Assembly: GCA_011389685.1 (NCBI GenBank)
Contig: JAABTV010000003.1
Location: 1 to 64,000 of the forward strand
Origin: Paracoccaceae bacterium
GTDB lineage: Bacteria; Pseudomonadota; Alphaproteobacteria; Rhodobacterales; Rhodobacteraceae
Length of the DNA stretch: 64,000 nt
Reading direction: 5' to 3'
The translations under genes and the position numbers were made by a program. The notes below the pieces were generated by a model. The model saw nothing but the letters and a program-made list of their open reading frames with translations, was not told where the DNA came from and searched no databases. Positions 3,068 through 29,573 of this stretch are shown piece by piece; position 1 is the first letter of the stretch, and each line of letters opens with the position of its first letter.

Positions 3068-3934
3068 TTACGGGGCGGGCGCGAGGCCGAGCATCTGGCG
3101 GGCCTCGTCGGGGCTGGCGATGGCGCGCCCGGCGTTGCGCGCGCAGGTGGCCAGTGCCTCGATCAGCGGGCCGCTCGATCCGGCCCGGCCCCCGTCGGGC
3201 AGGTAGAACGTGTCCTCGAGCCCGCTGCGCAGCATGCCGCCCAGGTCGGCGGCGTGCTGGTGCAGCGGCCAGATCTCGGCGCGTCCGATCAGCGTGGCCT
3301 GCCAGCGCGCGCCGGGTCGCATGTAGCGTTGCAGCAGGGTGAGCAGGTCGGCATCGGCGGGCATGCCCGAGGCCACGCCCATCACGAGGTTGTATTGCGC
3401 GCGGTCGGTCATGCCGTGGCGCAGATACATCTCGACCGAGCGCAGGATGCCGGTATCGAAACATTCGAACTCGGGCAGGGTGCCGGTTTCGGCCATGACA
3501 TCGAGGAAATCCCGGATCTTGTCGGGCAGGTTGTCGAACAGCATCGGCGGCCAGGCCCAATCGCCGTTGGCGCGCAGCTTGAGGTAGTTGAGCGACCCGG
3601 CATTGCAGGCGGCGATCTCGGGGCGCAGGGCGCGCAGCACGTCGAGCGCGCCCTGGTAGTCGGGCCCGACGACCCCGGTGGTCGAGTTGATGATGATGCC
3701 GGGGCAGGCATTGCGGATCGCGGCGACGATCGCGGTGGCGGTCTGCGGATCCCAGCTTGGCAGGTGGCCGCGCCCCGGCTCTTGCCGGCGATAGTGGATA
3801 TGGATGATGGCGGCGCCGGCCTCCATCGCCTCGCGCGCGGCGGCGGCGCATTGCGCGGGGGTGACCGGAACGGGATGCTGCGCCGGGTCGGTCAGAACGC
3901 CGGTCAGCGCGCAGGTGAGGATGGCCTTGTCCAT
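3068..3934 (-). CDS. BKACE (DUF849) beta-keto acid cleavage-type enzyme
   Basis: The 288-residue TIM-barrel protein begins [17 protein letters not shown] and contains AAIIHIHYR and IIINSTTGV, which fit the metal-binding and substrate-binding strands of the BKACE (Kce-like) family. Members condense a 3-keto acid with acetyl-CoA and release acetoacetate plus a new acyl-CoA. The substrate cannot be read from the sequence. The start at 3934 is preceded by GGAGAT, and the upstream DinB-like gene stops one base before the ATG, so the two are translationally coupled. It is the last gene of the acyl-CoA carboxylase operon, which implies that a carboxylated or keto acyl intermediate is its substrate or product (inference). 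Confidence 0.85.
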
Positions 3935-3935
3935 G

Positions 3936-4733
3936 TCATGATCTCCGAAAGCGGTTGCCGGGGGCGGGGGGCGTGACCGGCGGGCCGGCGAAACATTGCG
4001 CATGGGTCATCCATGTGCGGGCGCCGGGGCCGGTGACCACGAGCGCGGTATCGGCCAGCGCCCGGGTCTGGGTCTGCACCGCGGCGAAATCGACGGCCGG
4101 GCCGGTGACGGTGTTGGCGTCGTCCTCGCCAAAGGTCCAGAGCGCGCCCGAGGGGGCGGTGAGGCGCAGCCGGGGCATGGTGTCGGGCAGGGCCAGTCCG
4201 TGGACCTGATGCGACCAGGCGAAGGTGTTGACGCCCAGCACCACGATATTGCGGATGCGGTCGCTTTCGCAACGGGTCTGTCCGAGGATGTCGAAGACCT
4301 CGAACCCGTGGGCCCAGGTCTCCATCTGCCGCGCGGTCATCGACGAGCGTGCCGACATCGACGGGCCGACCCAGGGCAGGCGGGTTTTCGGGTCCATCCC
4401 CTGCCAGCGCGTGCCGATGTCGCGGGCGGTGTCGATCCAGGCCGCCCTGAGGGCCGGGCCGCGTTCGGCGATCTCGGCATTCTCGATCGGTCTGAGCGAG
4501 CCGCCGGCGGCGAACTGTGCCGTCACCCGCGCGGCGAGGGCGGCGAAGGCATCGCCGTCGCTGGCCGAGAGATCGGCGGCGCGGTTCCAGAAATGCAGGT
4601 GGACGAGCACGTCATTGATGGTCCAGCCCTTGAACTGGGTGGGCATGTCGAACGCGGCCGCGTCAAGATCGGCAAGCGCGGCATGGAGGGTTTCGGATTC
4701 GGTCAGGAAATCGGCGGCCTGGGTCAGGGACAT
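3936..4733 (-). CDS. TIGR03084-like DinB/MDMPI-fold protein
   Basis: The 265-residue protein starts MSLTQAADFL. Its N-terminal half has the four-helix DinB/maleylpyruvate-isomerase pattern, with candidate metal ligands at HLHFWNR and METWAHGFEVFD. This matches what I know as the TIGR03084 family of putative metal-binding proteins. No reaction is established for the family as far as I know. Genes of this type often sit beside acyl-CoA carboxylases and acyclic-terpene-utilisation genes. Here its start overlaps the alpha-subunit stop by 10 bases and its stop is one base from the BKACE start, so it is an integral part of this operon. A thiol- or CoA-ester-related isomerase or transferase role is inference. 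Confidence 0.75.
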   Translation of the reverse strand: MSLTQAADFLTESETLHAALADLDAAAFDMPTQFKGWTINDVLVHLHFWNRAADLSASDGDAFAALAARVTAQFAAGGSLRPIENAEIAERGPALRAAWIDTARDIGTRWQGMDPKTRLPWVGPSMSARSSMTARQMETWAHGFEVFDILGQTRCESDRIRNIVVLGVNTFAWSHQVHGLALPDTMPRLRLTAPSGALWTFGEDDANTVTGPAVDFAAVQTQTRALADTALVVTGPGARTWMTHAQCFAGPPVTPPAPGNRFRRS

Positions 4734-6697
4734 GCGGGCTCCTCACTGTCGATGCGGGCGATCGGGGCGCCGGTGGCGAGTTGATCGCCCGGCGCGACAT
4801 TCAGCTCGGCCAGCCGGCCCGCGCGCGGCGCGGTGATCCGGTGCTGCATCTTCATCGCTTCGAGCACGGCGATCAGTTGATCCTTGTCGAGCCGCTCGCC
4901 CGGTTTGGCATGGGTCGAGACGACGAGCCCGGGCATCGGCGCGGCCAGCGCGCCCTGCGGGGCCGCCGCGGCGCTGTCCCAGGGGCGGTGGCGGGCGATG
5001 CGCAACATCTGTGCGCCATGCCCGAGCCAGAGCCCGCCGTCGCCATCGGGCGCGATGTGACAGGTCGCGCGGGCGTCGTCGATGCGCGTGAGCGCGCCGT
5101 CAAAGGCCACCGCATGCGACCAGCCGTCCCCGTCGATCCGCCAGCCCGCCGCGCCAAGCGGGCGCGCGGCGAGGTGGTGAACCGCCCCGCCGGTGGCCAG
5201 GTCGAGCGGGATCGGCAAGCCGCCATCCGAGGCAAAGCCCAGAAGCGTGTCGTCCACCAGCGGCGCGGCGGCCAGCGCGGCCCGCATCTCGGCGCGCAAG
5301 AGACAGGCCGCGGCCAGCGCGACGGTCGCGCTTGTCGGGGGCGTGTCGGGCAGCCCGTCGGGATAGGTGGCATCGAGAAAGCCGGTGGTGGCATGGCCGC
5401 CCGCGAAACCGTCGCTGGCGAGGATGGCGGCGAGGAAGCCGGCATTGGTCGTCACCCCGAGGCAGGCGGTCTCGTCGAGCGCCCGGCGCAGCCGCGCCAG
5501 CGCGGTGGCGCGGTCGGGGCCATGGGCGATGATCTTGGCCAGGAGCGGGTCGTAATGCGGCGTGATTTCTTGTCCGGTGGCCAACCCCGCGTCGATGCGG
5601 ATGCCCGCGCCGCTGGCCGGGGTCCAGAGCGCCACGCGTCCGGTGGCGGGCAGAAAGCCCTGCCCGGGGTCTTCGGCGTAAAGCCGCGCCTCGATGGCGT
5701 GGCCGCTGAGCCGCAGCTGATCCTGGGTGAGCGGCAGGGGGGCGCCTTGGGCGATCTCGATCTGCATCGCCACGAGGTCGAGCCCGGTGACGCATTCGGT
5801 CACCGGGTGTTCGACCTGAAGCCGGGTGTTCATTTCCAGGAAGAAGAAGTCGTCGCGCTCGGTGAGCAGGAATTCGACCGTGCCGGCGCCGGTGTAATCC
5901 ACCGCGCGGGCGGCGGCGATGGCGGCCGCACCCATCGCGGCGCGCAGATCGGGGGTGAGCGCGGGGCAGGGCGCCTCTTCGAGCACTTTCTGGTGGCGGC
6001 GCTGGACCGAGCAGTCGCGTTCGCCAAGATGGATGATGTTCCCGTAGCGATCGGCCATGATCTGGATCTCGACATGGCGCGCGCCGTCGAGCGCGCGTTC
6101 GAGGATGAGCCGGTCCGAGCCGAAGGCGTTGCGCGCCTCGTCGCGCGCGCGCGAAAGCGCATCGGGCAGATCGGCGGCATCCTCGACCCGGCGCATGCCC
6201 CGCCCGCCGCCGCACGCCGCGGCCTTGACCATCAGCGGAAAGCCGATCCGGGTCGCCGCCGCGATTAGCGCCGCATCGGATTGATCGGCGCCGTCATACC
6301 CCGGGATGCAGGCCACGCCCGCCGCCTGCATCGCCTGCTTGGCGCGGGCCTTGTCGCCCATCACCTCGATGGCATCGGGCGACGGGCCGATGAAGGTGAG
6401 GCCCGCCGCGGCCACGGCGCGCGCGAAATCGGCGTTTTCGGACAGGAAGCCATAGCCCGGGTGGATCGCCCCGGCGCCGGTGTCGCGGGCGGCGCGCAGG
6501 ATGGCGTCGGCATCGAGATAGCTTTTCACGGCGGGGGCGGGCCCGATCGAGACCCTGCGGTCGGCCAGCGCGGCATGGGGGGCATCGGTATCGGGTTCGG
6601 AATGGACCGCCACGGTCGAAAGGCCCATGGCGCGGGCGCTGCGGATGATCCGGACGGCGATCTCGCCCCGGTTGGCGATGAGGATCCTGTCGAACAT
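4724..6697 (-). CDS. Acyl-CoA carboxylase alpha subunit (biotin carboxylase + BCCP)
   Basis: The 657-residue protein carries an N-terminal biotin carboxylase domain (about 1-445: ILIANRGEIAVRI, the Gly-rich ATP loop around AACGGGRGM, FLEMNTRLQVEHPVTE) and a C-terminal biotinyl domain with EAMKM, whose Lys takes biotin. It carboxylates biotin with ATP and bicarbonate for the beta subunit encoded immediately upstream. The domain order is that of propionyl-, methylcrotonyl- and geranyl-CoA carboxylases, and the acyl substrate cannot be decided by eye. The start at 6697 (MFDRILIANRG) fits the family N-terminus and lies one base after the beta stop. A longer in-frame reading upstream is a shadow. 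Neighbours without a propionyl pathway favour a branched or terpenoid acyl-CoA (inference). Confidence 0.92.
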   Translation of the reverse strand: MFDRILIANRGEIAVRIIRSARAMGLSTVAVHSEPDTDAPHAALADRRVSIGPAPAVKSYLDADAILRAARDTGAGAIHPGYGFLSENADFARAVAAAGLTFIGPSPDAIEVMGDKARAKQAMQAAGVACIPGYDGADQSDAALIAAATRIGFPLMVKAAACGGGRGMRRVEDAADLPDALSRARDEARNAFGSDRLILERALDGARHVEIQIMADRYGNIIHLGERDCSVQRRHQKVLEEAPCPALTPDLRAAMGAAAIAAARAVDYTGAGTVEFLLTERDDFFFLEMNTRLQVEHPVTECVTGLDLVAMQIEIAQGAPLPLTQDQLRLSGHAIEARLYAEDPGQGFLPATGRVALWTPASGAGIRIDAGLATGQEITPHYDPLLAKIIAHGPDRATALARLRRALDETACLGVTTNAGFLAAILASDGFAGGHATTGFLDATYPDGLPDTPPTSATVALAAACLLRAEMRAALAAAPLVDDTLLGFASDGGLPIPLDLATGGAVHHLAARPLGAAGWRIDGDGWSHAVAFDGALTRIDDARATCHIAPDGDGGLWLGHGAQMLRIARHRPWDSAAAAPQGALAAPMPGLVVSTHAKPGERLDKDQLIAVLEAMKMQHRITAPRAGRLAELNVAPGDQLATGAPIARIDSEEPACP

Positions 6698-6698
6698 C

Positions 6699-8309
6699 TC
6701 AGATCCTCGCCACGCCGAAGGTATTGGGGTTGAGGTCGCGCGCCCGCGCCTCGGCGCAGGTGTCAAGGCAGAAGCCCAGCACCTTGCGGCTGTCGCGCGG
6801 GTCGATCACGCCATGATCGAGCACCTGACCCGAGGTGAAGAACGGGTGGGCCTGGCGTTCGAATATTTCTTCGATCCGGGCTTCCTGGGCGGCGAGGCGG
6901 GCCTCGTCGGGGTCGGCGCCCTTGCGGGCGGCCGCGGCGCGGGCGACGGCGGACATGGTGCGCGCGGCCTGTGCCCCGCCCATCACCCCGGAGCGTGAGC
7001 CGGGCCAGGCGAACAGGAAATCGGGTTCGAAGGCCCAGCCGCACATGCCGTAATTGCCGGCGCCGAAACTGGCCCCGCAATAGAGCGTGATCCTGGGGAC
7101 ACGAGCATTGGACACCGCCTGGATCATCTTGGAGCCGTGCTTGATCATGCCGGCGCGTTCATATTCGACCCCGACCATGTAGCCGGTGGTGTTGTTGAGG
7201 AAGATCAGGGGGGTGCCGGCCTGGTCGCAGGCCTGGATGAAATGCGTCGCCTTGGCCGCGCCGGCCGGGTCGATCGGGCCATTATTGGCGAGGATGCCGA
7301 CGCTATGGCCATGGATGCTGGCCTGAAGGCAGAGCGTGGCGGGGCCGAAATCGGGTTTGAACGCGTCGACATCCGAATTGTCGGTGAGATGCGCGACCAG
7401 CGCGCGGGCGTCGTATGGCGTCATCGGGTCGGCCGGGACCAGCCCGGCGATCCCGTCGGGGTCATGGCGCGGCGGCGCGAAGGCGCGCGCGTCCCGTGCC
7501 CGGGCGGCGGGCAGCGCGCGGTTCCAGTCAAGCCGGGCCACGGCGCGGCGGGCCATGTCGATGGCATGGGCGTCGTCCGCGGCCAGGTATTCGACGAGGC
7601 CGGAGATCGTGGCGTGCATCTCGGCCCCGCCGAGGTCGCGGTCGGGGGTGGTTTCGCCGGTCGCGGCCTGCACCAGCGCCGCCCCGGCCAGCGCCGCCAT
7701 GCCGTTACGCCGCACGCCGATCACGTAATCCGAAAGCCCCGGCATGTAGGCTCCGCCTGCGGTCGAGGGGCCGTGCAGCACGGCGATGGTCGGCAGCCCC
7801 GCCGCCGACAGCCGCGCGAGGTTGCGAAACACCGCTCCGCCGCGCGCCCAGTCGCCGACGCGGTAATTCATCAGGTTCGCCCCGGCGCTTTCGACCAGAT
7901 GCACGAAGGGCAGTTTCTGGCGCAGCGCGATCGCCTGCATCGAGAGCATCGCGTCGAGCGATCCGGGGCTGAGCGCGCCGGCGTTGATGCCGCTGTCATC
8001 GACCACCACCATGCAGCGGGCGCCCGAGATGAACCCGATCCCGCCGATGAAGGTCGAGCCGGGGATCGAGGCTTCGGGATCGTCGCTGTCGCCAAGATAA
8101 CCCGCGAGGCTGTGCAGGCGCAGGAAGGGCAGGCCGGGATCGAGCAGCCGGGCCAGCCGTTCGCGCGGCGTGATCTGGCCGCGTTGATGGAAACGCGCGC
8201 GGCGTTCCTCGGATTTGCGCGCCGCCCGGGCTTCGAGTTCGCGCAAATCCGAGATCGCCGCGAGCATCGCGGCGCGGTTTCGGTCGTGATCCGGTGAGGT
8301 CGGTGTCAG
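6699..8309 (-). CDS. Acyl-CoA carboxylase beta subunit (carboxyltransferase), probable CTG start
   Basis: This subunit moves CO2 from carboxybiotin to an acyl-CoA. The protein shows the crotonase-like carboxyltransferase halves: ESAGANLMNYR and GGAYMPGLSDYVIGV in the N-half, and NNTTGYMVGVEYERAGMIKHG and GASFGAGNYGMCGWAFEPDF in the C-half. It is the first gene of the four-gene operon. The start is uncertain. The first ATG is at 8267 with no ribosome site. A CTG at 8309 sits six bases after a perfect GGAGGA (8321-8316) and would give the N-terminus normal for this family, ahead of the NRAAM motif, so I used it. It would be 536 residues from CTG or 522 from ATG. Confidence 0.85.
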   Translation of the reverse strand: MTPTSPDHDRNRAAMLAAISDLRELEARAARKSEERRARFHQRGQITPRERLARLLDPGLPFLRLHSLAGYLGDSDDPEASIPGSTFIGGIGFISGARCMVVVDDSGINAGALSPGSLDAMLSMQAIALRQKLPFVHLVESAGANLMNYRVGDWARGGAVFRNLARLSAAGLPTIAVLHGPSTAGGAYMPGLSDYVIGVRRNGMAALAGAALVQAATGETTPDRDLGGAEMHATISGLVEYLAADDAHAIDMARRAVARLDWNRALPAARARDARAFAPPRHDPDGIAGLVPADPMTPYDARALVAHLTDNSDVDAFKPDFGPATLCLQASIHGHSVGILANNGPIDPAGAAKATHFIQACDQAGTPLIFLNNTTGYMVGVEYERAGMIKHGSKMIQAVSNARVPRITLYCGASFGAGNYGMCGWAFEPDFLFAWPGSRSGVMGGAQAARTMSAVARAAAARKGADPDEARLAAQEARIEEIFERQAHPFFTSGQVLDHGVIDPRDSRKVLGFCLDTCAEARARDLNPNTFGVARI

Positions 8310-8368
8310 CTTCTGTCCTCCGCCTGGCCGGGCCGCCCCTGCCGACCCTGTCCGGGGAACGATAGAAA

Positions 8369-8399
8369 GCACCCGCGCGAAGGGCAAGCGCGCGGGCGC
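8369..8399 (-). terminator. Hairpin immediately after the Crp/Fnr gene
   Basis: GCGCCCGCGCG pairs with CGCGCGGGTGC (one G-U pair) around a 9-base loop, reading on the minus strand, and is followed by TTTC. It begins just after the regulator's stop at 8401. It probably separates the Crp/Fnr transcript from the carboxylase operon downstream, although read-through is possible. Confidence 0.6.
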
Positions 8400-8400
8400 C

Positions 8401-8937
8401 CTACGTCGCGTCGTGGCGCCGGCGCCGCGCCAGTTCGCGGTAAAGCGCCTCGCGGGTGATGCCGAGTTCGCCGGCAAGGGTCTGCCACTGGCCCTTGTCG
8501 GGCAGGGGATTGCCCTCGGCCAGCCAGGCATCGAGGCGATGGGCGACGCGCGGCAGGCTGCGGATCTCGGCCCTGAGACGGGCGGACTGAACCCCGCGCG
8601 CCAGCATCGCGGCCCAGCCTTGGGCAAGCTGCGGGTCCTCAGCCAGCGCCGCGAGGAACCGGGCGCGCGGCAGGGCGGAGAGGGTCGCGCGCTCGAGTGC
8701 CACGCCGTCGCAATGATATTGCGGCGAATAGGCCGACGCCTCGGCCAGAACCTGTCCTGGCGCGGCGTTTTGCAGGATCAGCGGGGCCCCCTGGCTTGTG
8801 TGGCGGATCAGATGCACGCGCCCCTTGCGCAACAGGAAGATGTCGCGCACCGGATCGCCCGCGCGAAACAGTGCCTGTCCCGGGGCGAGATCAAGCGAAC
8901 GGGCCTGCGAAAACAGCGGGGCGGCGAAACCGGACAT
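8401..8937 (-). CDS. Crp/Fnr-family transcription regulator
   Basis: The 178-residue protein has a cyclic-nucleotide-binding-type beta-roll in its first 110 residues (LAPGQALFRAGDPVRDIFLLRKG is the typical opening) and a short C-terminal helix-turn-helix (LAGELGITREALYREL). It has no Cys cluster near the N-terminus, so it is not an FNR-type iron-sulfur sensor. The cAMP-contact residues are also not obvious. I chose ATG 8937 (MSGFAAPL), though ATG 8949 is possible. It is divergent from the periplasmic Spy-like gene (76-base gap) and lies upstream of the carboxylase operon. It could control either, which is inferred only from position. Confidence 0.85.
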   Translation of the reverse strand: MSGFAAPLFSQARSLDLAPGQALFRAGDPVRDIFLLRKGRVHLIRHTSQGAPLILQNAAPGQVLAEASAYSPQYHCDGVALERATLSALPRARFLAALAEDPQLAQGWAAMLARGVQSARLRAEIRSLPRVAHRLDAWLAEGNPLPDKGQWQTLAGELGITREALYRELARRRRHDAT

Positions 8938-9013
8938 GATCGTGATCATATGACCCGGCGGGCGGGCATGCAACACATGGACCCGACGCAAGGACCCGAG
9001 AGGAGACAAGACC

Positions 9014-9610
9014 ATGACCCGAATCGCCCCGCTTATCGCCTTGCTGGGACCGCTGGCCGTCACCGCACCGGCACAGGCCGACACATCACCCTATGCCGGG
9101 CCCTATGCCGGGGAAGAGACCCGCGAGATCAAGGCCCTCTCGGAGAGCGATCTCGACGAGCTGCGCCGTGGCGGGGGCTGGGGGCTGGCGCTGGCGGCGG
9201 AACTGAACGGCGTGCCGGGGCCTGCGCATCTTCTGGAGTTGAAGGACCGGATCGGGCTGAGCGCGGCGCAGGTCGAGGCGATCGAGGCGATCTTTGCGCG
9301 TATGCAGGCCGATGCCAGGGCGGCGGGCGCGCGCCTGATCGCCGCCGAGGCCGCGATCGAGGCCGCGTTTCGCGCCGGGGACCTCGGCCCGGAGGAGCTG
9401 CGCGCGCTGATCGACAGGGCGGCGGCGGCGCGGGCCGATCTGCGCCATGTCCACCTGTTGCGCCATCTCGAAACGCCGCCCCTGCTCAGCGCCGATCAGA
9501 TCGCGCGCTATAACGCGCTGCGCGGTTACGGGGTGGGCGGGCCCTGCGACATGGTTCCCGAAGGCCATGACCCGGCGATGTGGCGCAAGCACAATAATTG
9601 CGAGGAGTGA
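9014..9610 (+). CDS. Spy/CpxP-like periplasmic protein
   Basis: The 198-residue protein has a signal peptide (MTRIAPLIALLG... cut after PAQA, about residue 22). The mature part is helical and Ala/Leu/Glu-rich, with LKDRIGLSAAQVEAIEAIF and a second LLSADQIARYNALRG. These are reminiscent of the LTxxQ repeats of the Spy/CpxP/zinc-resistance family, which act as periplasmic chaperones or metal-responsive sensors. An AGGAGACAAG ribosome site precedes ATG 9014. Its only neighbour in orientation is the divergent Crp/Fnr gene, which is the natural candidate regulator. The C-terminus is basic and Cys-containing (WRKHNNCEE). The family call is by helical pattern and motif, not by strong identity. Confidence 0.7.
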   Translation: MTRIAPLIALLGPLAVTAPAQADTSPYAGPYAGEETREIKALSESDLDELRRGGGWGLALAAELNGVPGPAHLLELKDRIGLSAAQVEAIEAIFARMQADARAAGARLIAAEAAIEAAFRAGDLGPEELRALIDRAAAARADLRHVHLLRHLETPPLLSADQIARYNALRGYGVGGPCDMVPEGHDPAMWRKHNNCEE

Positions 9611-9678
9611 GCGTGGGGGGGTGAGACCGGACCGCCGGCACGCCCTGTGGATGTCACACCGGAACGGAATCAGTCCTG

Positions 9679-9730
9679 CCCGCCCCGGCTCAAGGCCGGG
9701 GCGGGTGTTTCCCATCAAACGCGACACGCC
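9679..9730. terminator. G+C-rich hairpin followed by short dispersed repeat
   Basis: CCCGCCCCGGC-TCAAG-GCCGGGGCGGG (9679-9705) is an 11-bp perfect stem followed by TGTTT. It lies between the convergent ends of the Spy-like gene and the molybdoenzyme gene. Directly after it, 9714-9730 reads ATCAAACGCGACACGCC, one of four copies of a short repeat in this window. Confidence 0.65.
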
Positions 9731-9749
9731 CCGGGCGGGCGATGCGCGA

Positions 9750-12059
9750 TCAGGCCGGGCGGATGCGCAGGATCACCGGCGGGGCCGTGCCGACCGTGAC
9801 CGGGGGCACGTCGCCCGCTGCCTCGACCTCGACTAGGCAGGAATGCGCGATCGGGCCCTGGGCCAGTTTCGACGTGCCCTTGTCGGGGGTGAGCGTGTTG
9901 GGGTTGCCATGGATGCAGGTTTCGCCCATGGGCTCATACCACGCTCCGGTGGCGATCTGGATCACGCCGGGGCGGATCTCGTCGCTGATCCTGAGCCCGG
10001 CAAGGCTGGCCCCGCGCGCATTGTAGAGGCGCACCACTTGGCCTTCGCTGAGGCCGCGCGCGGCGGCGTCGTCGGGGTGCATCAGGACCGGCTCGCGCCC
10101 GGCCACGCGGTCGGCGCGGCTGAGCGTGCCGTGGTCGATCTGGCTGTGCAGCCTGGTTTTCGGCTGGTTCGAGATCATGTGCAGCGCGGTGCCGGCGCCC
10201 GGTTTGCCCAGCCATTCCAGCGGCTCGATCCAGGCCGGGTGGCCCGGGCAGTCGTCATAGCCGAACCCGGCGATGGTCTCCGAGAAAATCTCGATCCTGC
10301 CGCTGGGGGTCTTCAATGGTCGCGCCTCGGGATCGGCGCGGAACGCCTCCATCATCACGGTCTGTTTCCCGGGCGCGGGAACCCGGTGCCAGCCGATGCG
10401 GCGCAACTCGTCCAGCGGTGGGAGTTCGACGCCGCCACGCGACGCCGCCTGCCGTGACAGATCGTAAAGCCAGCGTTGCCAGTCGGCGGCGCTGCGCCCT
10501 TCGGTGAACGCCTCTTCCACGTCCATCGCCGCCGCGATCCCCCGGAAGATCTCGTGATCGTCGCGCGCCGCGCCGGCCGGTTCGGCGGCCTTGTCCATCA
10601 TGGTGATGAACGGGTCCTTGGGCGACATGGCGATGTCGTCACGCTCAAGCGGGGTGGTGCAGGGCAGCACGATGTCGGCATGCCGCGCAAGGCTGTTCCA
10701 GCACCATTCGTTCACGATGATCGTGTCGGGGCGCGCCCAGGCCCGGCGCAGGCGGTTGAGGTCCTGGTGGTGGTGAAACGGGTTGCCCCCCGCCCACCAG
10801 ATGAGCCGCACATCGGGATAGGTGAGGGTGCGGCCGTTGTAGTCGACCGTGCCGCCGGGATTTTCGAGCATGTCGGTGACCCGCGCCACGGGGATGTAAT
10901 CAGCCACCGGGTTCTGGCCCTGCGGAAAGGCGGCATAGGGCACCTGTTTGCGGTTCAGCCCGGTGTGGTTCATCGCCGAATAGCCGAACCCCACGCCGCC
11001 GCCGGGCAGGCCGATCTGCCCCAGCATCGCGGCCAGCGTGATCGCCGCCCAATAGGGTTGTTCGCCATGATCCTGCCGGGTGAGCGCATAGGCGACCGAG
11101 ATCTTCGTGCGCCCGCTTGCCATGCGCCGCGCCAGATCGCGGATCGTCGCGGCCGGGATCTCGGTGATCGCGGCGGCCCAGTCGGCGGTTTTCGGTTGGC
11201 CATCGCTTTTACCCGTGAGGTAGGCCGCGAACCGGTCGAACCCCACGGTGTAGCGGTCGAGAAAGGCGCGGTCATGCAGCCCCTCGGTCAGGATCACATG
11301 CGCCAGCCCCAGCATCAGCGCGGCATCGGTCGAGGGTCTGAGCGCGAGCCAGTCGGCATCGACCTGGCCCATCACATCGGCCCGCAAGGGCGAGATGTTG
11401 ACAAAGCCCGTGCCCGCCTCATGCGCCGCCAGAACGCCCGCCTTTTGCACATGCGCGCCGGTGCCGCCCTGCGTGATCTGCCCGTTCTTGAGCGGCACAC
11501 CGCCGAAGGCCACGAACAGGTCGCAATGCGCGGCAATCGAGTCCCAGGATGTCATCCGGTCGAGAAAGCCGCGAAAATCGCCCAGCACATGCGGCACGAT
11601 CACCTCGGCGGCGGCAAAACTGTAGGTGTTGACCGACGAGGTGAACCCGCCCACGAGATTGAGGAACCGCTTGAGCTGTCCCTGTGCGTGGTGGAACCGC
11701 CCGGCGCTGGCCCAGCCATAGGAGCCGGCATAGATCGCCCGGTTGCCATGCGCGCGCCGCACCCGCCCGATCTCGTCCGCGATCAGGCGATTGACCTCGT
11801 CCCATGTGACCTCGACGAATTCTTCCGATCCGCGCCGCGCGCCACCCGTGCCCGGTCCGCCTTCGAGCCAGCTTCGCCGCACCGCCGGGGCGGTGATGCG
11901 CAGCGCATCGGTGCGCGTCTCGACCATACCCTGCCCGATGGGCGAGGGGTCGGGGTCATGCTCGAACGGGATCACCCCGGTCAACTCGCCATTCTCGGCC
12001 TCGACCCAGTAGGTGCCCCAATGGCTGTTGGTGATCGGTCTGCGGTGCGGGTTGCTCAT
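9750..12059 (-). CDS. Molybdopterin S/N-oxide reductase, BisC/DMSO-reductase type, cytoplasmic
   Basis: The 769-residue protein is a member of the DMSO reductase family of bis-MGD enzymes. It has YAGSYGWASAGRFHHAQ, then GGFTSSVNTYS. Ser147 in the latter aligns with the Ser that ligates molybdenum in DMSO, TMAO and biotin sulfoxide reductases. It also has WAGGNPFHHHQDLNRL, RHADIVLPCTTPLERDD and the C-terminal DKGTSKLAQGP. The N-terminus lacks the twin-arginine signal and an iron-sulfur motif, so it should stay in the cytoplasm like biotin/methionine sulfoxide reductases. A GGGAGACAGAAG ribosome site precedes ATG 12059. No dedicated chaperone or c-type cytochrome partner is nearby. The MarR gene upstream (72 bases away, same strand) is the only evident regulator. 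Confidence 0.9.
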   Translation of the reverse strand: MSNPHRRPITNSHWGTYWVEAENGELTGVIPFEHDPDPSPIGQGMVETRTDALRITAPAVRRSWLEGGPGTGGARRGSEEFVEVTWDEVNRLIADEIGRVRRAHGNRAIYAGSYGWASAGRFHHAQGQLKRFLNLVGGFTSSVNTYSFAAAEVIVPHVLGDFRGFLDRMTSWDSIAAHCDLFVAFGGVPLKNGQITQGGTGAHVQKAGVLAAHEAGTGFVNISPLRADVMGQVDADWLALRPSTDAALMLGLAHVILTEGLHDRAFLDRYTVGFDRFAAYLTGKSDGQPKTADWAAAITEIPAATIRDLARRMASGRTKISVAYALTRQDHGEQPYWAAITLAAMLGQIGLPGGGVGFGYSAMNHTGLNRKQVPYAAFPQGQNPVADYIPVARVTDMLENPGGTVDYNGRTLTYPDVRLIWWAGGNPFHHHQDLNRLRRAWARPDTIIVNEWCWNSLARHADIVLPCTTPLERDDIAMSPKDPFITMMDKAAEPAGAARDDHEIFRGIAAAMDVEEAFTEGRSAADWQRWLYDLSRQAASRGGVELPPLDELRRIGWHRVPAPGKQTVMMEAFRADPEARPLKTPSGRIEIFSETIAGFGYDDCPGHPAWIEPLEWLGKPGAGTALHMISNQPKTRLHSQIDHGTLSRADRVAGREPVLMHPDDAAARGLSEGQVVRLYNARGASLAGLRISDEIRPGVIQIATGAWYEPMGETCIHGNPNTLTPDKGTSKLAQGPIAHSCLVEVEAAGDVPPVTVGTAPPVILRIRPA

Positions 12060-13121: not shown

Positions 13122-13147
13122 AATTTATATGCAAAGTAATATAAATT
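13122..13147 (+). promoter_or_regulatory. Inverted repeat upstream of iorA, candidate operator
   Basis: AATTTATAT-N8-ATATAAATT is a perfect 9-bp inverted repeat in otherwise G+C-rich DNA, 20 bases before the iorA ATG at 13168. Its A+T content makes it both a possible -10 region and a typical MarR-type operator. The adjacent MarR gene (12132-12713) is the obvious candidate ligand-responsive regulator. Confidence 0.6.
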
Positions 13148-13167
13148 GTCCGGGCAGGGGGAGAGAC

Positions 13168-15327
13168 ATGGCCGAGCGGTCTTTCAGGAAAGAGGTGCAG
13201 CAGCTGCGCATCGGCGCGGGCGAGACGTTTCGCGGCGAGGGTATCCTGGCCATCACCAAGGCGCTTCTGGAGAACGGGGTCGGCTATGTCGGCGGGTATC
13301 AAGGCGCGCCGATCAGTCATCTGATGGATGTTCTGGCGGATGCCGAGGACATCCTGGCCGAACTCGGTGTGCGCTTCGAGGCCAATGCCTCGGAGGCGGC
13401 GGCGACGGCGATGCTGGCCGCGTCGGTTCATTATCCGATCCGGGGCGCGGTGACCTACAAGGGGCCGGTGGGGGCCAACGTGGCCTCGGACGCGCTGGCC
13501 AATCTGGCCTCGGGCGGGGTCAAGGGCGGCGCGTTGGTGATCGTGGGCGAGGATTACGGCGAAGGCTCGTCGATCATGCAGGAACGCAGCCACGCCTATG
13601 CCATGAAATCGGGCATATGGCTGCTCGATCCGCGGCCGAACCTGCCCTCGATCACCGAGGCGGTGCGCAACGGGTTCGAACTGTCCGAGGCATCGAACAC
13701 GCCGGTCATGATGATGGTGCGGATTCGCGCCTGTCATGTCCATGGCGCGTTCGAGGCGCGCGACAACGTGGCGCCGCCGCTGAGTGTGCGCGACGCCCTG
13801 TCGAACCCGCAGCGCGATACGTCGCGTATCGTGCTGCCACCCTATTCCTACCGGCACGAACAGGAAAAGGTGACGCAGCGCCTGCCCGCCGCGCTTGACC
13901 ATATCCGCGCGCATGGCCTCAACGAGCGGTTCGGCCCGGAAACGGCGCCGGTGGGCATCGTGGTGCAGGGCGGCATGTATAACGGACTGATCCGGGCGCT
14001 GCAGCGGCTGGGATTGGCCGATCTGCATGGTGACAGCCTGGTCCCGCTTTACGTGATGAACGTGGCCTATCCGGTGGTCGAGGACGAATTCCTGGAATTC
14101 GCGGAGGGCAAGGAGGCGGTCCTTGTGGTCGAGGAAGGCACGCCCGGTTTCATCGAACAGGCGCTGCGCGCGGCGCTGCACAAGGCCGGGTCGGCCCGCA
14201 CCATCGAGGGCAAGGGGGTGTTGCCCGAAGCGGGCGAACTCACCGGGCGGGTGATGCTTGACGGGGTTGCGCGCTTTCTGCGGGCGCATGCGCCCGGTCT
14301 GCTGCCGGCCGAGGTGCGCGCGCCCAACCGCGATGCGCCGCCGCCAGCGCCGGACCTGTCGGACGCGGTGCCGATCCGACCGCCGGGCTTTTGCACCGGC
14401 TGTCCGGAAAGGCCGATCTTCGCGGCGATGAAACTGGTCGAGGAGGAACTGGGTCAGCATCAGGTGGCGGGCGATATCGGCTGTCACCTGTTTTCGACCA
14501 TGCCGCCGTTTTTCATCGGCGGCACGACCATGGGCTATGGCCTGGGCGGTGCGTCGAACGCGGCCTTCGATGGCGGCGGCGAAAAGCGGTCGATCTCGAT
14601 CATGGGCGATGGCGGGTTCTGGCATAACGGGCTGACCTCGTCGATCGGCAATGCGGTCTTCAACCGCTCCGACGGGGTCACGATCATCGTGGACAACTAC
14701 TATTCCGCCGCCACCGGCGGGCAGGATGTGATGTCGAGCCGTGCCGACAACCCGTCGAAATCGACCGGGCACCCGATCTCGAAGGCGCTGGAGGGGGTGG
14801 GTGTCGGCTGGATCCGGCAGATCGACCGCACCTATGACGTGACGAAGATGCGCGACACGCTGCGCGAGGCGCTGACCACCGATCACGCGGGGCCCAAGGT
14901 CATCATCGCGTCGTCGGAATGCATGCTGAACCGCCAGCGCCGCGAACGGCCGCAACTGCAGGCGGCGATCCGCGAGGGCCGCCGTGCGGAGAAACCGAAA
15001 TTCGGCGTCGATGAAGAGGTCTGCACCGGCGATCATGCCTGCATGCGGCTTTCGGGCTGTCCGTCGCTCACGCTGAAAATGCCCGACGATCCGCTGCGCG
15101 ACGATCCGGTGGCCTATATCGACCAGACCTGTGTCGGGTGCGGAAACTGCGGCGAGGTGGCGGATGCCGCGGCGCTTTGCCCGTCGTTCTACCGGGCCGA
15201 TCTGGTCCACAACCCGCGCCGTTTCGAAGCCTGGCTTGCGCGGCTGCGCGCGCGTGTCATCGCCTGGTTGCAGGGGCGTCGCGACGCAAGGCGTCTCACA
15301 TGGGGCACGGCGGAGGGGCAGGGATGA
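13168..15327 (+). CDS. iorA: Indolepyruvate:ferredoxin oxidoreductase, alpha subunit
   Basis: This subunit oxidatively decarboxylates aryl-pyruvates from transaminated Trp, Phe and Tyr to aryl-acetyl-CoA, reducing ferredoxin. The 719-residue protein has an N-terminal pyruvate-binding domain (GGYQGAPISHLMDVL), a ThDP-binding domain with GDGGFWHNG near residue 480 ending in VDNYYSAATGG, and C-terminal ferredoxin-type Cys motifs, including CVGCGNC near residue 653. The start at 13168 follows GGGGAGAG, and an in-frame ATG at 13129 lies inside the inverted repeat and is rejected. The stop overlaps the iorB start (ATGA). In alphaproteobacteria IOR is used in aerobic aromatic amino acid catabolism. 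The nearby anthranilate operon makes that likely here too (inference). Confidence 0.93.
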   Translation: MAERSFRKEVQQLRIGAGETFRGEGILAITKALLENGVGYVGGYQGAPISHLMDVLADAEDILAELGVRFEANASEAAATAMLAASVHYPIRGAVTYKGPVGANVASDALANLASGGVKGGALVIVGEDYGEGSSIMQERSHAYAMKSGIWLLDPRPNLPSITEAVRNGFELSEASNTPVMMMVRIRACHVHGAFEARDNVAPPLSVRDALSNPQRDTSRIVLPPYSYRHEQEKVTQRLPAALDHIRAHGLNERFGPETAPVGIVVQGGMYNGLIRALQRLGLADLHGDSLVPLYVMNVAYPVVEDEFLEFAEGKEAVLVVEEGTPGFIEQALRAALHKAGSARTIEGKGVLPEAGELTGRVMLDGVARFLRAHAPGLLPAEVRAPNRDAPPPAPDLSDAVPIRPPGFCTGCPERPIFAAMKLVEEELGQHQVAGDIGCHLFSTMPPFFIGGTTMGYGLGGASNAAFDGGGEKRSISIMGDGGFWHNGLTSSIGNAVFNRSDGVTIIVDNYYSAATGGQDVMSSRADNPSKSTGHPISKALEGVGVGWIRQIDRTYDVTKMRDTLREALTTDHAGPKVIIASSECMLNRQRRERPQLQAAIREGRRAEKPKFGVDEEVCTGDHACMRLSGCPSLTLKMPDDPLRDDPVAYIDQTCVGCGNCGEVADAAALCPSFYRADLVHNPRRFEAWLARLRARVIAWLQGRRDARRLTWGTAEGQG

Positions 15328-16988: not shown

Positions 16989-17393
16989 TTAGCCGCCGGG
17001 TTTCACAAAGGCCGTCGCCTCGATCTCCAGGAGCGCCTCGTCCTCGACCAGATCCTTTATGACAATCAAGGACATGGCCGGGAAATGCCGCCCCAGCACC
17101 CGGCGATAGGCCGCGCCGATCTCGCGTTGATGCGCCAGGTATTCAGCCTTGTCCTTCACGAACCATGTCAGCCGCCCGATATCGCCCACGTCCCCCCCCG
17201 CGGCCCGCGTGATTGCGGCGATGTTTTCAAGCGCTTGCTCCATCTGTCCGACGAAATCGTGATGCTCGAACACCTTTTGCGCATTCCATCCGATCTGGCC
17301 CGCGATATGCAGCGTGCCATCCTCCATCAACATCCCGTTGGCATAACCCAGGGCCGGGGCCCATCCTTCGGGTTGAATTGTTTTCGGGGCCAT
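16989..17393 (-). CDS. RidA/YjgF-family deaminase-like protein
   Basis: The 134-residue protein contains GQIGWNAQKVFEHHDFVGQMEQALENI and ends LLEIEATAFVKPGG, the layout of the RidA (YER057c/UK114) trimer. RidA itself hydrolyses reactive enamine/imine intermediates. Other subgroups include 2-aminomuconate deaminase and chorismatase-like proteins. The Arg that RidA uses to bind the substrate carboxylate, normally near the C-terminus, is not evident in the EIEATA segment, so canonical imine deamination is uncertain. Placement at the end of the anthranilate operon, 39 bases after kynA, suggests that it clears or converts an aminated ring-cleavage intermediate (inference). The start is ATG 17393. 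Confidence 0.85.
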   Translation of the reverse strand: MAPKTIQPEGWAPALGYANGMLMEDGTLHIAGQIGWNAQKVFEHHDFVGQMEQALENIAAITRAAGGDVGDIGRLTWFVKDKAEYLAHQREIGAAYRRVLGRHFPAMSLIVIKDLVEDEALLEIEATAFVKPGG

Positions 17394-17432
17394 GTTGCCT
17401 CTCCTCGTTCCGTCTCTTAACCTGTTGAAATC

Positions 17433-18263
17433 TCAAAGCTCGCCGCGCAGATGCCAAAGCTCGGGGAAAAGCTCGACCTCCAGCATCCGGCGCAGGTAGG
17501 CCACCCCCGAGGTGCCCCCGGTGCCGCGCTTGAACCCGATCACCCGCTCGACCGTGGTGACATGGTTGAACCGCCAGCGGCGGAAATAATCCTCGAGATC
17601 GACCAGCTTTTCGCCCAGTTCATAAAGCGCCCAGTGGTTCGCGGTATCCTCGTAAACCATCTTCCAGCGCGCCTGGATCTCGGGCTGTGCGACATGCGGC
17701 TGACCAAGCTGCGGGGCAGGGGGCGCACCGCCGCCGGTGCCCTCGAACAGCCGCGCGACAACCACGTCGTAAAAGCTGGGGCGATCCAGCTCTTGCTCAA
17801 GCTTTTCAAGCACGTCCGGCACATGCGCATGGGGTTTGAGCATGTTGGGGTTGCGGTTGCCCAGCACGTATTCGATCATCCGGTATTGCCAGGATTGAAA
17901 CCCCGATGACGGCCCAAGCGTGTCGCGAAACCGGGTGTAATCCGCCGGGGTCATGGTGCGCAACACGTCCCACGCGTTGTTGAGCTGCTCGAAGATGCGG
18001 CTCACGCGGGCCAGCATCTTGAACATCGCCTCCAATGCCCCGGCCTCGAGCGCGGCCCGGGCGGCGGAAAGCTCATGAATGGCCAGCTTCATCCAGAGTT
18101 CACTTGTCTGGTGCTGGATGACGAACAGCATTTCGTCATGCGCATCCGACAGCGGGTGCTGTTGATCGAGAAGCGCATCCAGATGCAGGTAATCGCCATA
18201 TGACATCGCCTCTTTGAAATCGAGCCTGGCCCCCTCCTGCCCGGGATCATAGGCGCCACTCAT
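17433..18263 (-). CDS. kynA: Tryptophan 2,3-dioxygenase
   Basis: This heme enzyme opens the indole ring of L-Trp to N-formylkynurenine, the first step of the kynurenine route to anthranilate. The 276-residue length is normal. Diagnostic stretches are [35 protein letters not shown] (with the active-site His after FVIQ), [17 protein letters not shown] and [22 protein letters not shown], which carries the proximal heme His and the Thr of the substrate loop. The start overlaps the CoA ligase stop by four bases. Kynurenine formamidase and kynureninase, the next two enzymes, are not in this window, so the pathway must be completed elsewhere. Confidence 0.97.
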
Positions 18264-19879
18264 TGCTCCGACCTCAGGCGGAAGCGTTGGATCTTGCCGG
18301 TTTCGGTCTTGGGCAGGGCCTTTGTGAACACCACCGAGCGCGGGTATTTATAGGGCGCGATCGTCGATTTCACGTGGTCCTGCAAGAGTTTGACCATCTC
18401 GGGGCCGGGCACCGCACTGGTCGACAGCACCACATGCGCCTCGACAATGGCGCCGCGGTCCTCGTCCGGCAGGCCGATCACCGCGCATTCGGCCACGGCC
18501 TCATGCGCCAGCAATGCCGCTTCGACCTCCGGCCCGGCAATGTTGTAACCCGACGACAGGATCATGTCGTCATTGCGCGCGGCGAAATGGAAATAGCCCT
18601 CCGCGTCCATGAAGAACGCATCGCCTGTGATGTTCCAGCCCTCCTGCACATACTCGCCCTGCCGCTCGCCACGCAGGTAACGGCACCCGGTCGGACCGCG
18701 CACCGCCAGCCGCCCGACCTCGCCGGGGGGCAATTCCTGCCCGTCCTCGCCGATCACCAGCGCCTCGTAGCCCGTGACCGGCTTGCCGGTGCAGGCGGGG
18801 CGGTGGTCCTCGAACCGGTTGGTGACAAAGATATGCAGCATCTCGGTCGCGCCGATCCCGTCGAGCATCGGCTTGCCGGTCTTTTCCATCCATTCGTCAT
18901 AAACCGGGGCGGGCAGGGTCTCGCCCGCGCTGACGGCGGCGCGCAGGCTGGAGAGGTCGGCGCCCTCGTCCATCGCCTTGAGCATGGCGCGATAGGCGGT
19001 TGGCGCGGTGAAACAGACGCTTGCGCGGTATTTCTCGATGATCTCGATCATGTTGGGCGGCGTGGCATTCTCCAAAAGCGTCGCCGCCGCACCGAAGCGC
19101 AGCGGAAAGATCGCCAGCCCGCCAAGGCCGAAGGTAAAGGCCAGCGGGGGCGAGCCCACGAACACGTCCTCGGGCTGCACATCCAGCACCTCGCGCGCGT
19201 AACCATCGGCGATGATCAGGAGATCACGGTGGAAATGCATCGTGCCCTTCGGCTCCCCGGTTGAGCCGCTGGTGAAGCCGATCAGCGCCACGTCATCCTG
19301 TGCAGTCTGGACCGCGTCGAACTGCACGGATTTTTCCAGCGCCAGCCGGTCGAGCTCGGCATCGTGGTTCGAGGTGCCGTCAAAGCCCACCACTGTTTTC
19401 AGGAAGCGCGAACCCTTGGCACAGATCGCCATCTCATCCATCAGCCGCGTGTCGCACAGCGCATGGGTGATCTCGGCCTTGTCGACATATTTCGCCAATT
19501 CGCCCGCGCGCAGCATCGGCATGGTGTTGACCACCACCGCCCCGGCCTTGGTCGCGGCCAGCCAGCAGGCCACCATCGCCGGGTTGTTGGCCGAACGGAT
19601 AAGAACGCGATTTCCGGGCTTTACACCCAGATCCTCAACCAATGCATGAGCAAGCCGATTGGTCCAGTCGGAGAGTTCCTTGTAGGTGCGCCGCCGCCCG
19701 TTGCCGATGAGCGCGGTATGATCGCCAAAGCCGCGCGCCACCATCGCATCGGTCAGTTCCACCCCGGCATTGAGCCGGTCGGGATAATCGAATCCGTCGA
19801 GCCGAAGCTCGGGCCAGGTCTCGGGCGCGGGCAGGTTGTCGCGTGCAAAGCTGTCCGCGTGGGCCGATGGTCTGAGCAT
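18260..19879 (-). CDS. 2-aminobenzoate (anthranilate)-CoA ligase, benzoate-CoA ligase family
   Basis: The 539-residue AMP-forming ligase has the P-loop-like [18 protein letters not shown] (about residues 195-212), the adenylate motif [12 protein letters not shown], the hinge [18 protein letters not shown], and the C-terminal catalytic Lys in [11 protein letters not shown]. Family relatives activate benzoate or 2-aminobenzoate. Adjacency to a 2-aminobenzoyl-CoA monooxygenase/reductase and kynA makes anthranilate the likely substrate (established cluster logic from Azoarcus-type pathways, applied here by inference). It is cytoplasmic and translationally coupled to kynA, with three bases separating it from the upstream acyl-CoA dehydrogenase gene. 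Confidence 0.9.
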
Positions 19880-19882
19880 ATC

Positions 19883-21031: not shown

Positions 21032-21045
21032 CGCACCCTCTTTCA

Positions 21046-21121
21046 TCTTCATCTTGCCGGAAATACTCCGGGCTGGTGACAAGTCGCGCTGCGACTTGCA
21101 CCCGGGGTTGGCCCCCCGGGG
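21046..21121. repeat. Intergenic hairpin-rich repeat (CTTGCCGGAAATACTCCGGG type)
   Basis: The segment contains CCGG-AAATACT-CCGG, a perfect AAGTCGC-GCT-GCGACTT stem (21081-21097), and CCCGGGG-TTGG-CCCCCCGGG. The first part is a motif I remember from between many Rhodobacterales genes. It interrupts an otherwise tightly packed operon and may trim or stabilise the mRNA between the hydratase and dehydrogenase cistrons. Confidence 0.55.
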
Positions 21122-21129
21122 CTCTCAAC

Positions 21130-24709: not shown

Positions 24710-25021
24710 CGAGACCTCCCATGATTCGCCGGGCCGGAGCGGGGCCCGATGGCGATAATCTGGCCAATGACAGAAAGTATTTCAAGGTTAAAAGTTTTAT
24801 ATATTGATTTTATACCGCATGAAAGGCAAGCTGTCAGTCAGGGATCAGCACGGCCGGGTTTTTCGGGGGTATGCTTACGTTTTTGTTGACAACCGTGGCC
24901 GTGTTGGGAACCCTTAGGGCTGAGCAATATATTGCATCATTCGTGGGCGGGACCCGCGGAAGATTCGGAAGGTGATCCGGGTTTGTGAGGCAATATAGTG
25001 CCGATCAACGGGAGGAAGAAA
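24710..25021. promoter_or_regulatory. Divergent promoter/operator region, aminobenzoyl-CoA and Liv operons
   Basis: This 312-base gap is A+T-rich at 24778-24822 and contains three related sites. TATATTG at 24800-24806 is one half-site. A perfect palindrome GCAATATATTGC lies at 24924-24935, and a near-palindrome GGCAATATAGTGCC at 24989-25002. All share the CAATATA half-site. One lies near the leftward operon and two close to the rightward Liv operon, so a single MarR protein could control uptake and degradation together. GGAGGAAG at 25011-25018 is the ribosome site of the binding-protein gene. Confidence 0.6.
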
Positions 25022-26161: not shown

Positions 26162-26227
26162 GTCCATGGCCGCCGGGGCTTCGCGCTCCGGCGGCCCAGG
26201 CGAAATTCACGGCAGGTTTTCGGGCAT

Positions 26228-27145: not shown

Positions 27146-27148
27146 TCC

Positions 27149-29572: not shown

Positions 29573-29573
29573 A

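Follow-up and report, generated by a model that had tools for sequence, protein, structure and literature searches.

A GCC-type carboxylase operon with a BKACE-family enzyme in a Paracoccaceae bacterium: a possible variant of the Atu route

Results

Organization of the operon

The window analysed here, the first 64,000 nucleotides of contig JAABTV010000003.1 of a Paracoccaceae bacterium, contains four genes on the minus strand, running from position 8309 to position 3068 in the order carboxylase beta subunit, carboxylase alpha subunit, TIGR03084 protein and BKACE. The beta gene (6699..8309), for a carboxyltransferase subunit placed on the geranyl-CoA carboxylase (GCC) side, ends with a TGA at 6699, and the ATG of the alpha gene lies at 6697. 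The alpha gene (4724..6697), for a biotin carboxylase and biotin carrier subunit of 657 amino acids, ends at 4724 within the TIGR03084 gene (3936..4733), which starts at 4733, giving a 10-base overlap. The TIGR03084 gene ends with a TGA at 3936, one base from the ATG at 3934 of the BKACE gene (3068..3934; 288 amino acids). These coordinates confirmed the statement of an earlier note that all four genes overlap or lie one base apart, and the coupling is more than chance, since other genomes have kept the same gene arrangement.

The outer edge of the beta gene at 8309 is a CTG start preceded by GGAGGA at 8321-8316. The resulting product of 536 amino acids is close in length to several relatives of 539 amino acids; an internal ATG at 8267 could be an alternative start. 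No ACAD, ECH or CoA ligase gene was detected beside the operon. A minus-strand gene for a Crp/Fnr-like cNMP-binding protein (8401..8955; PF00027, 56.8 bits) is located about 90 bases upstream. As no homologue was found in the 80 BKACE loci described below, or reported in the TIGR03084 loci of the window's order, this neighbour is probably not part of the system.

Class of the carboxylase

Domain searches detected PF01039 in the beta subunit (353.7 bits) and PF00289, PF02786, PF02785 and PF00364 in the alpha subunit, which carries the biotinyl motif EAMKM. The best solved relative of the beta subunit was the GCC beta subunit 5ikl (555.9 bits), with the methylcrotonyl-CoA carboxylase (MCC) structure 3u9r at 422.9 bits and a propionyl-CoA carboxylase (PCC) also scoring well. 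The best solved relatives of the alpha subunit were the biotin carboxylase 9yx0_D (578.1 bits) and then the MCC alpha subunit 3u9s (549.4 bits).

According to Jurado 2015 (PMC4673880), Gly versus Phe at the position of MCC Phe191 separates GCC from MCC. The window beta subunit has Gly at this position, as do 77/77 operon beta subunits of the fetched loci, while the same genome's own MCC beta subunit has Phe. The loop before this position is one residue longer in the window protein than in Pseudomonas aeruginosa GCC, compared with three residues longer in P. aeruginosa MCC; the extra residue of the window protein is missing from relatives with the other gene layout (see below). In the beta tree, 41 rows including 5ikl were separate from MCC and PCC (support 99/100); a single Rhodococcus row on a long branch lay just beyond them (93/80), and 5ikl joined the beta subunits of the other layout (93/90). 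As the best solved relative, the diagnostic Gly and the tree agree, the operon beta subunit is, by sequence, placed on the GCC/AtuC side and away from MCC and PCC. A placement within MCC or PCC, named in the earlier note as part of what would refute its proposal, was not found, and this check favours the note.

The BKACE and TIGR03084 proteins

The BKACE matched PF05853 with 270.7 bits (cut-off, 24.8). Its structure model (pLDDT 90.6) was a TIM barrel whose best matches were DUF849/Kce structures (Foldseek E values of 4.1e-24 to 3no5 and 5.9e-24 to 2y7f). Residues H44, H46, E156, R235, E239 and D240, numbered without the start Met, were invariant in 26/26 aligned sequences; we take H44, H46 and E239 to correspond to the Zn ligands of Kce (His, His, Glu) and R235, D240 and E156 to its catalytic residues (Arg, Asp, Glu). 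The alignment placed a Leu where Kce has Glu14. Matches to the characterised NCBIfam equivalogs (Kce, 3-oxoadipate and 3,5-dioxohexanoate; 179.5, 152.4 and 152.1 bits) were below the cut-offs of 382, 350 and 430, respectively, and identity to the three other BKACEs of the same genome was 31 to 34%. The protein thus shares family, fold and presumed active site with Kce and with BKACE15 of Paracoccus denitrificans but belongs to a subfamily of its own, linked to GCC-type carboxylases. No BKACE/DUF849 paper with a terpene or geranyl-CoA link was found among titles and abstract openings; the genome-context data of the main family paper (Bastard 2014) may mention the cluster. Among the matches listed, no paper joined 3-keto-5-aminohexanoate or beta-ketoacid cleavage to geranyl-CoA, terpenes or methylcrotonyl-CoA.

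The TIGR03084 protein scored 284.8 bits, above the curated cut-off of 247.95. Its structure model (pLDDT 91.3) had an MDMPI/DinB-like fold, the best match being maleylpyruvate isomerase (2nsg/2nsf; TM 0.52 to 0.58), and comparison with the sequences of solved structures gave a single chance match (E = 1.3). Residues H45, E138 and H142 were invariant in 33/33 aligned sequences and form a putative metal triad, which may correspond to that of the mycothiol-dependent maleylpyruvate isomerase. No paper naming TIGR03084 was found in the literature search. In the window's order, 30/48 loci around TIGR03084 had no adjoining carboxylase of the operon's type, and the recurrent neighbours in these 30 loci did not indicate a function. 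A role as a required partner of BKACE was rejected: among tested genomes that have BKACE in layouts other than the alphaproteobacterial one, the protein was missing in 23/23.

Gene neighbourhoods of the BKACE relatives

A total of 193 BKACE relatives were found, and the neighbourhoods of 80 were examined. A carboxylase subunit adjoined the BKACE gene in 77 of these loci, which supports the view of the earlier note that the four genes go together. Two main layouts were observed. Alphaproteobacteria had the order beta-alpha-TIGR03084-BKACE, while the second layout, found mainly in Betaproteobacteria, was beta-ACAD-ECH-alpha-BKACE, i.e. the atuC-D-E-F order with BKACE added. Genes for beta, alpha, ACAD and ECH were all present in 29 of the 77 carboxylase-linked loci. 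The second layout holds everything up to the hydratase with no recognised lyase; HMG-CoA lyase was found in 0/80 loci, many of which were short.

A PaaX-like regulator gene was divergent from 12/20 alphaproteobacterial operons (85.5 bits; PaaX cut-off, 264.55), and a MerR-type regulator gene was present in 25/80 loci. An SDR gene with at least 55% identity to the SDR of one locus, L155, was present in 19/80 loci. Downstream genes at L155 encode a Baeyer-Villiger-type monooxygenase, a hydrolase and an old-yellow-enzyme; the monooxygenase was found in 1/80 loci.

Relationship to AtuA clusters

AtuA clusters in the window's order contain the same carboxylase and TIGR03084 protein as the window operon. 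In the beta tree, the window protein grouped with seven AtuA-type beta subunits (97/87), these being seven of the ten such sequences of the window's order in the tree. The window BKACE was nested among BKACEs of the other layout (95/96 and 100/98). These placements show a mosaic history, with the carboxylase positioned among AtuA-type enzymes and the BKACE among those of the other layout.

AtuA was present in 0/8 BKACE genomes versus 22/40 others (48 genomes), six of the eight being from one genus; removal of three weak partial matches gave 0/8 versus 19/40 (P = 0.015). AtuA was detected in 0/22 genomes of the other layout and, within one family, in 5/23 genomes with BKACE versus 74/127 (P = 0.0014). 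All of these tallies are raw genome counts, uncorrected for shared ancestry. Strict mutual exclusion was ruled out by genomes holding both, namely 3/7 named alphaproteobacterial BKACE genomes, the genome of locus L162 and the 5/23 genomes of the family comparison. AtuA is, hence, depleted but not excluded where BKACE is present. The window's genome gave no AtuA match in a search that was positive in 22/48 genomes; this genome is 86% complete, and all gene absences from it are soft.

Other relevant genes of the genome

Genes for an MCC beta subunit and HMG-CoA lyase were found on contig 23 of the window's genome and for a PCC-like beta subunit and mutase on contig 1. HMG-CoA lyase was present in 28/28 genomes tested, including the window's and AtuA-type ones, and was therefore uninformative as a discriminating partner. 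A dedicated ACAD was not identified, the closest candidate being at most 36% identical to the ACAD of L155. The earlier note had stated that the operon matches no textbook route and lacks the expected companions. The gene set indeed corresponds to no complete textbook route; the mutase and HMG-CoA lyase, however, are encoded elsewhere in the genome, ACAD and ECH occur in the mainly Betaproteobacterial layout, and related clusters from the window's order contain AtuA.

Discussion

The operon does not stand alone: correcting the earlier note, which proposed a possible undescribed pathway, it looks like a variant of the Atu (acyclic terpene utilisation) system with BKACE in the position of the lyase. 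On balance, we favour an Atu-like route for a beta-methyl-branched (isoprenoid-type) acyl-CoA in which AtuA would be replaced at the last step by BKACE. The substrate of the GCC-type carboxylase would be a 3-methyl-2-enoyl-CoA of greater size than methylcrotonyl-CoA, and carboxylation of its methyl branch would yield a 3-R-glutaconyl-CoA. Hydration would produce 3-hydroxy-3-R-glutaryl-CoA, using the operon's own crotonase in the Betaproteobacterial layout and, in the window's genome, a hydratase encoded elsewhere or, less surely, help from the TIGR03084 protein, which is perhaps an isomerase or hydratase acting on the glutaconyl intermediate. An HMG-CoA-lyase-type cut by an enzyme of the LiuE type, encoded elsewhere, would then release acetyl-CoA and a free beta-keto acid, R-CO-CH2-COO-. 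BKACEs convert a beta-keto acid and acetyl-CoA to an acyl-CoA and acetoacetate (PMC11961710), and the operon enzyme would use both of these products. As this reaction makes R-CO-CoA and acetoacetate, the chain would re-enter beta-oxidation as a CoA ester, with no thiolase and no loss of acetate.

The published Atu pathway (atuABCDEFGH, Pseudomonas; operon name and atuC-D-E-F roles in PMC4847356) shares the GCC-type carboxylase and, with the second layout, the gene order. The window operon differs in having BKACE and TIGR03084 and in lacking AtuA, ACAD and ECH. The last-step lyase of Atu is LiuE according to PMC4097962, where it is named for 3-hydroxy-3-isohexenylglutaryl-CoA, and AtuA according to PMC4847356, so that these papers do not agree on how the route ends. 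A review (PMC12016498) describes unpublished work in which AtuA-like lyases cleave a similar tertiary alcohol. PMC4097962 and PMC4847356 write the last-step products as acetate and a 3-oxoacyl-CoA, which differs from the acetyl-CoA and free keto acid proposed here and counts against the route.

Clusters with AtuA and TIGR03084 in the window's order and in Actinomycetota also have the carboxylase close to TIGR03084, but differ in AtuA, often accompanied by ECH and ACAD, and no BKACE was seen adjoining them. The Liu system (leucine/isovalerate utilisation) applies chemistry of this type to a smaller substrate, and its regulator, which we take to be of the MerR type, is matched in kind by those of the 25 BKACE loci. 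The window operon differs from Liu in the Gly in place of the MCC Phe and in having BKACE instead of HMG-CoA lyase, the MCC beta subunit and HMG-CoA lyase being encoded separately.

A somewhat unlikely alternative is that BKACE is itself the lyase, converting Zn-bound 3-hydroxy-3-R-glutaryl-CoA to acetyl-CoA and the beta-keto acid and replacing AtuA without LiuE; the exchange to acyl-CoA and acetoacetate may finish at the same site. This would fit the location of BKACE next to the carboxylase where sister operons have AtuA and the lack of a recognised lyase in the second layout, and a Zn site for a beta-keto acid and acetyl-CoA could accommodate both halves of the substrate. Against it, the catalytic positions resemble those of an ordinary BKACE, and such an activity is not needed because all 28 genomes tested have HMG-CoA lyase. 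We know of no BKACE with 3-hydroxy-3-R-glutaryl-CoA lyase activity.

It is rather improbable that the pathway serves a different branched substrate, for instance a cyclic acid or one derived from an aromatic compound. A non-terpenoid enoyl-CoA would be carboxylated, with BKACE acting on the matching beta-keto acid, and the PaaX-like gene (below the PaaX cut-off), the genes downstream at L155 and the AtuA-like lyases of anaerobic naphthalene degradation (unpublished work reported in PMC12016498) are in keeping with this. However, no recurring ring-cleavage gene was noticed beside the operon in an unsystematic look, and the L155-type monooxygenase was confined to one of 80 loci. An ordinary MCC or PCC with a BKACE of unrelated use is very improbable despite the good beta matches, the second-placed MCC alpha subunit and the promiscuity of the BKACE family (PMC4922564), as leucine and propionate assignments were rejected on the basis of the Gly/Phe position, the tree and the finding that MCC with HMG-CoA lyase, and a PCC-like subunit with mutase, have genes of their own elsewhere in the genome, and BKACE adjoins the operon-type carboxylase in 77/80 loci.

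In the favoured Atu-like route, the free beta-keto acid released by a LiuE-type cut would require a CoA, which the conserved BKACE beside the carboxylase could supply. The operon makes the ending of the Atu route directly testable. It also ties TIGR03084 to GCC-type carboxylases and provides a predicted substrate class for a BKACE subfamily that occurs in both Alpha- and Betaproteobacteria. It is unlikely that this GCC-linked subfamily is a new lyase, one Zn-dependent TIM-barrel enzyme that cuts 3-hydroxy-3-R-glutaryl-CoA and transfers CoA at the same site to give acyl-CoA and acetoacetate. If so, Alpha- and Betaproteobacteria would remove a methyl branch after carboxylation by a third type of enzyme, unrelated to both HMG-CoA lyase and AtuA.

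Operon structure and carboxylase class

The carboxylase, TIGR03084 and BKACE genes form a coupled four-gene operon, as the earlier note had claimed. They are adjacent on the minus strand: the carboxyltransferase (beta) gene extends from 8309 or 8267 to 6699 and is followed by the biotin carboxylase/carrier (alpha) gene (6697-4724), with its biotinyl motif EAMKM, the TIGR03084 gene (4733-3936) and the BKACE gene (3934-3068), each junction being a ten-base overlap or a one-base gap. The operon is flanked by a threonyl-tRNA-synthetase-like gene (identified by eye) and a Crp/Fnr-like gene. The source genome is a 3.2-Mb draft, 86% complete, with the window on contig 26, and contains four BKACE genes and eight PF01039 matches.

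Among solved proteins, the beta subunit was closest to geranyl-CoA carboxylase (GCC) beta (555.9 bits), versus 422.9 bits for methylcrotonyl-CoA carboxylase (MCC) and 418.8 bits for a propionyl-CoA carboxylase (PCC), while the top relatives of the alpha subunit were 9yx0_D, a biotin carboxylase, and MCC alpha. According to Jurado et al. (PMC4673880), Phe191 of MCC beta is replaced by Gly in GCC and is immediately preceded by three residues additional to those of GCC. The window beta has Gly at this position with one additional residue ahead of it; Gly was also present in all 77 operon betas from the fetched loci that covered the selectivity site, some genomes being counted twice among these rows. 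The MCC beta of the source genome itself (contig 23) has Phe and the insertion. In a 45-row maximum-likelihood tree, the sampled operon betas grouped with Pseudomonas aeruginosa GCC and both MCC rows fell outside; the PCC row formed a very long branch, with a Rhodococcus row, likewise long, in between.

Leucine and propionate breakdown were both rejected as the role of the operon. An HMG-CoA lyase gene lies ~4 kb from the MCC beta gene on contig 23, and a methylmalonyl-CoA mutase gene (1274.5 bits, over the cut-off) lies ~6 kb from a contig 1 beta gene called PCC on the basis of its PF01039 score, the tree and this neighbor. As these genes are located elsewhere in the genome, the operon seems to be needed for neither process.

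Several other clusters were noted. Positions 16989-32356 of the window encode tryptophan 2,3-dioxygenase, an AMP-binding ligase and a bifunctional salicylyl-CoA 5-hydroxylase-type enzyme (1309 bits, over the cut-off), followed by a branched-chain-type ABC transporter (by eye); this region looks like a pathway for breakdown of tryptophan to 2-aminobenzoyl-CoA. A BisC/TorA-kind molybdopterin S/N-oxide reductase, below curated NCBIfam cut-offs, is encoded at 9750-12059, and a TPP enzyme resembling, by eye, indolepyruvate ferredoxin oxidoreductase at 13129-15327. On contig 37 (70000-89900; locus L094), an unusual cluster at 3408-11810 has three genes for carboxyltransferases and one read by eye as a biotin carboxylase, adjoining genes that resemble, by eye, succinyl-CoA synthetase; no relation of this cluster to the window operon was found.

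Distribution of the operon and of AtuA

TIGR03084 was matched in 49 of 390 genomes from the order of the window (Rhodobacterales, to judge by its named relatives), one match being weak. Of 48 loci examined in this order, the window excluded, 11 combined AtuA (the lyase of acyclic terpene utilization, Atu) with beta, alpha and TIGR03084, and some of these clusters also contained ECH and ACAD; 7 had beta, TIGR03084 and BKACE (the window being extra), with alpha missing in three; and 30 had no such carboxylase beside TIGR03084. A scan of named genomes with an alignment of eight BKACE sequences matched 193 relatives. Among the best 80 of these, BKACE adjoined beta, alpha and TIGR03084 in 17 loci, beta and TIGR03084 in 3, and beta, alpha, ACAD and ECH in 29; a further 28 loci, many of them on cut contigs, had other carboxylase sets next to BKACE, 2 had just ACAD and 1 lacked all of these genes. 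No AtuA gene was found within these 80 loci. The layouts containing TIGR03084 were alphaproteobacterial, by name mostly Rhodobacterales and Rhizobiales, and the remainder were mostly from Betaproteobacteria.

The same 80 loci included a MerR gene in 25 and, in 20, an SDR gene resembling that of alphaproteobacterial locus L155 (19 at at least 55% identity, one at 31%). A divergent PaaX-like gene (12/20) and a TauE gene (9/20) recurred in the alphaproteobacterial loci, but no copy of either was observed next to the operon of the window. Shimia-type operons (L084, L085, L087, L104, L106 and L111, with L085 and L111 from the same genome) had beta, TIGR03084 and BKACE genes but no alpha gene, and their beta is probably paired with an alpha subunit from another part of the genome. 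In another genome of this genus (L088, 8223-9916), the divergent PaaX-like gene accompanied TIGR03084, and neither carboxylase nor BKACE was found within the stretch. The Lutimaribacter saemankumensis beta gene (L101, 3587-5214) appeared to be split over two adjoining open frames, through a frameshift, an interruption or a sequence error. A nitronate-monooxygenase-family gene was a recurrent neighbor of TIGR03084 in L070 as well as in some AtuA-type clusters (L059, 8147-9274; L064, L067 and L080).

Among 48 TIGR03084 genomes, AtuA was present in 0/8 with the BKACE operon, six of these eight being from one genus, versus 22/40 others (Fisher P = 0.005; raw counts, kinship ignored), or 19/40 when three weak partial matches were left out (P = 0.015; raw counts). 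Within a sample of 150 genomes of the Aquabacterium commune family, AtuA was present in 5/23 with the BKACE subfamily versus 74/127 without it (P = 0.0014; raw counts, kinship ignored), or 71/127 with three weak matches dropped (P = 0.003; raw counts). Of 30 named BKACE genomes tested, AtuA occurred in 3/7 with the alphaproteobacterial layout, in the genome of L162, whose BKACE has no adjoining carboxylase, and in 0/22 of the remainder. Mutual exclusion was, therefore, rejected, as both genes occurred in these 3/7 genomes, in that of L162 and in 5/23 of the genomes with the BKACE subfamily in the A. commune family. AtuA is depleted rather than excluded alongside BKACE, and depletion is what replacement predicts.

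Mosaic history and the TIGR03084 protein

In the beta tree, 14 alphaproteobacterial BKACE-type rows formed one group (100/99), which joined seven AtuA-type rows (97/87) and then three more (100/100). In the BKACE tree, ten alphaproteobacterial rows grouped (96/92) and were joined first by L121 (100/98) and then by L155 (95/96), which are alphaproteobacterial loci with clusters of the other layout, L121 being on a cut contig; all of these rows fell among other-layout BKACEs. The simplest history would be that a carboxylase-TIGR03084 operon dropped AtuA and acquired BKACE.

TIGR03084 accompanied the carboxylase in both AtuA-type and BKACE-type alphaproteobacteria and in both actinobacterial plasmid clusters read, and was present in 7/7 tested genomes with the alphaproteobacterial BKACE layout versus 0/23 other BKACE genomes. 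Its link is, hence, with the carboxylase and not with BKACE, although in the majority of the Rhodobacterales loci (30 of 48) no such carboxylase adjoins it. The nearest fold to its predicted structure was mycothiol-dependent maleylpyruvate isomerase, with modest TM-scores of 0.52 to 0.58, and H45, E138 and H142 were invariant in 33/33 sequences. It may, at a guess, isomerize or hydrate the glutaconyl product.

The terminal step

The window BKACE has the predicted structure of an ordinary BKACE barrel. It retains the residues corresponding to the Zn ligands and catalytic set of Kce, a characterized BKACE. Leu occupies the position aligned with Kce Glu14, a difference compatible with a less polar substrate.

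PMC4847356 names AtuA for the Atu cleavage step and a review (PMC4097962) names LiuE, an HMG-CoA-lyase-type enzyme; both give the last-step products as acetate and 3-oxoacyl-CoA. An HMG-CoA-lyase-type cut by LiuE on the larger substrate would yield acetyl-CoA and a free beta-keto acid. BKACE converts a beta-keto acid and acetyl-CoA to an acyl-CoA and acetoacetate, as described in PMC11961710, and the two reactions together would complete the route. All 28 genomes tested contained an HMG-CoA lyase, which permits, without proving, such a sequence of LiuE-type cleavage and BKACE reaction. Less probably, BKACE may carry out this cleavage as well.

Downstream of BKACE in L155 (8874-14384) are genes for an acyl-CoA ligase, a Baeyer-Villiger-type monooxygenase, an esterase/lipase-type hydrolase and an old yellow enzyme, all below equivalog cut-offs, which hint at terpenoid ketone breakdown. 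No report of BKACE joined with GCC-type carboxylases was found among the papers listed by the literature searches. The proposal of an undescribed acyl-CoA pathway was supported in part: the operon seems to lie outside the leucine and propionate routes, is conserved in other genomes and is seemingly a variant of a known pathway type in which the terminal enzyme has been swapped.
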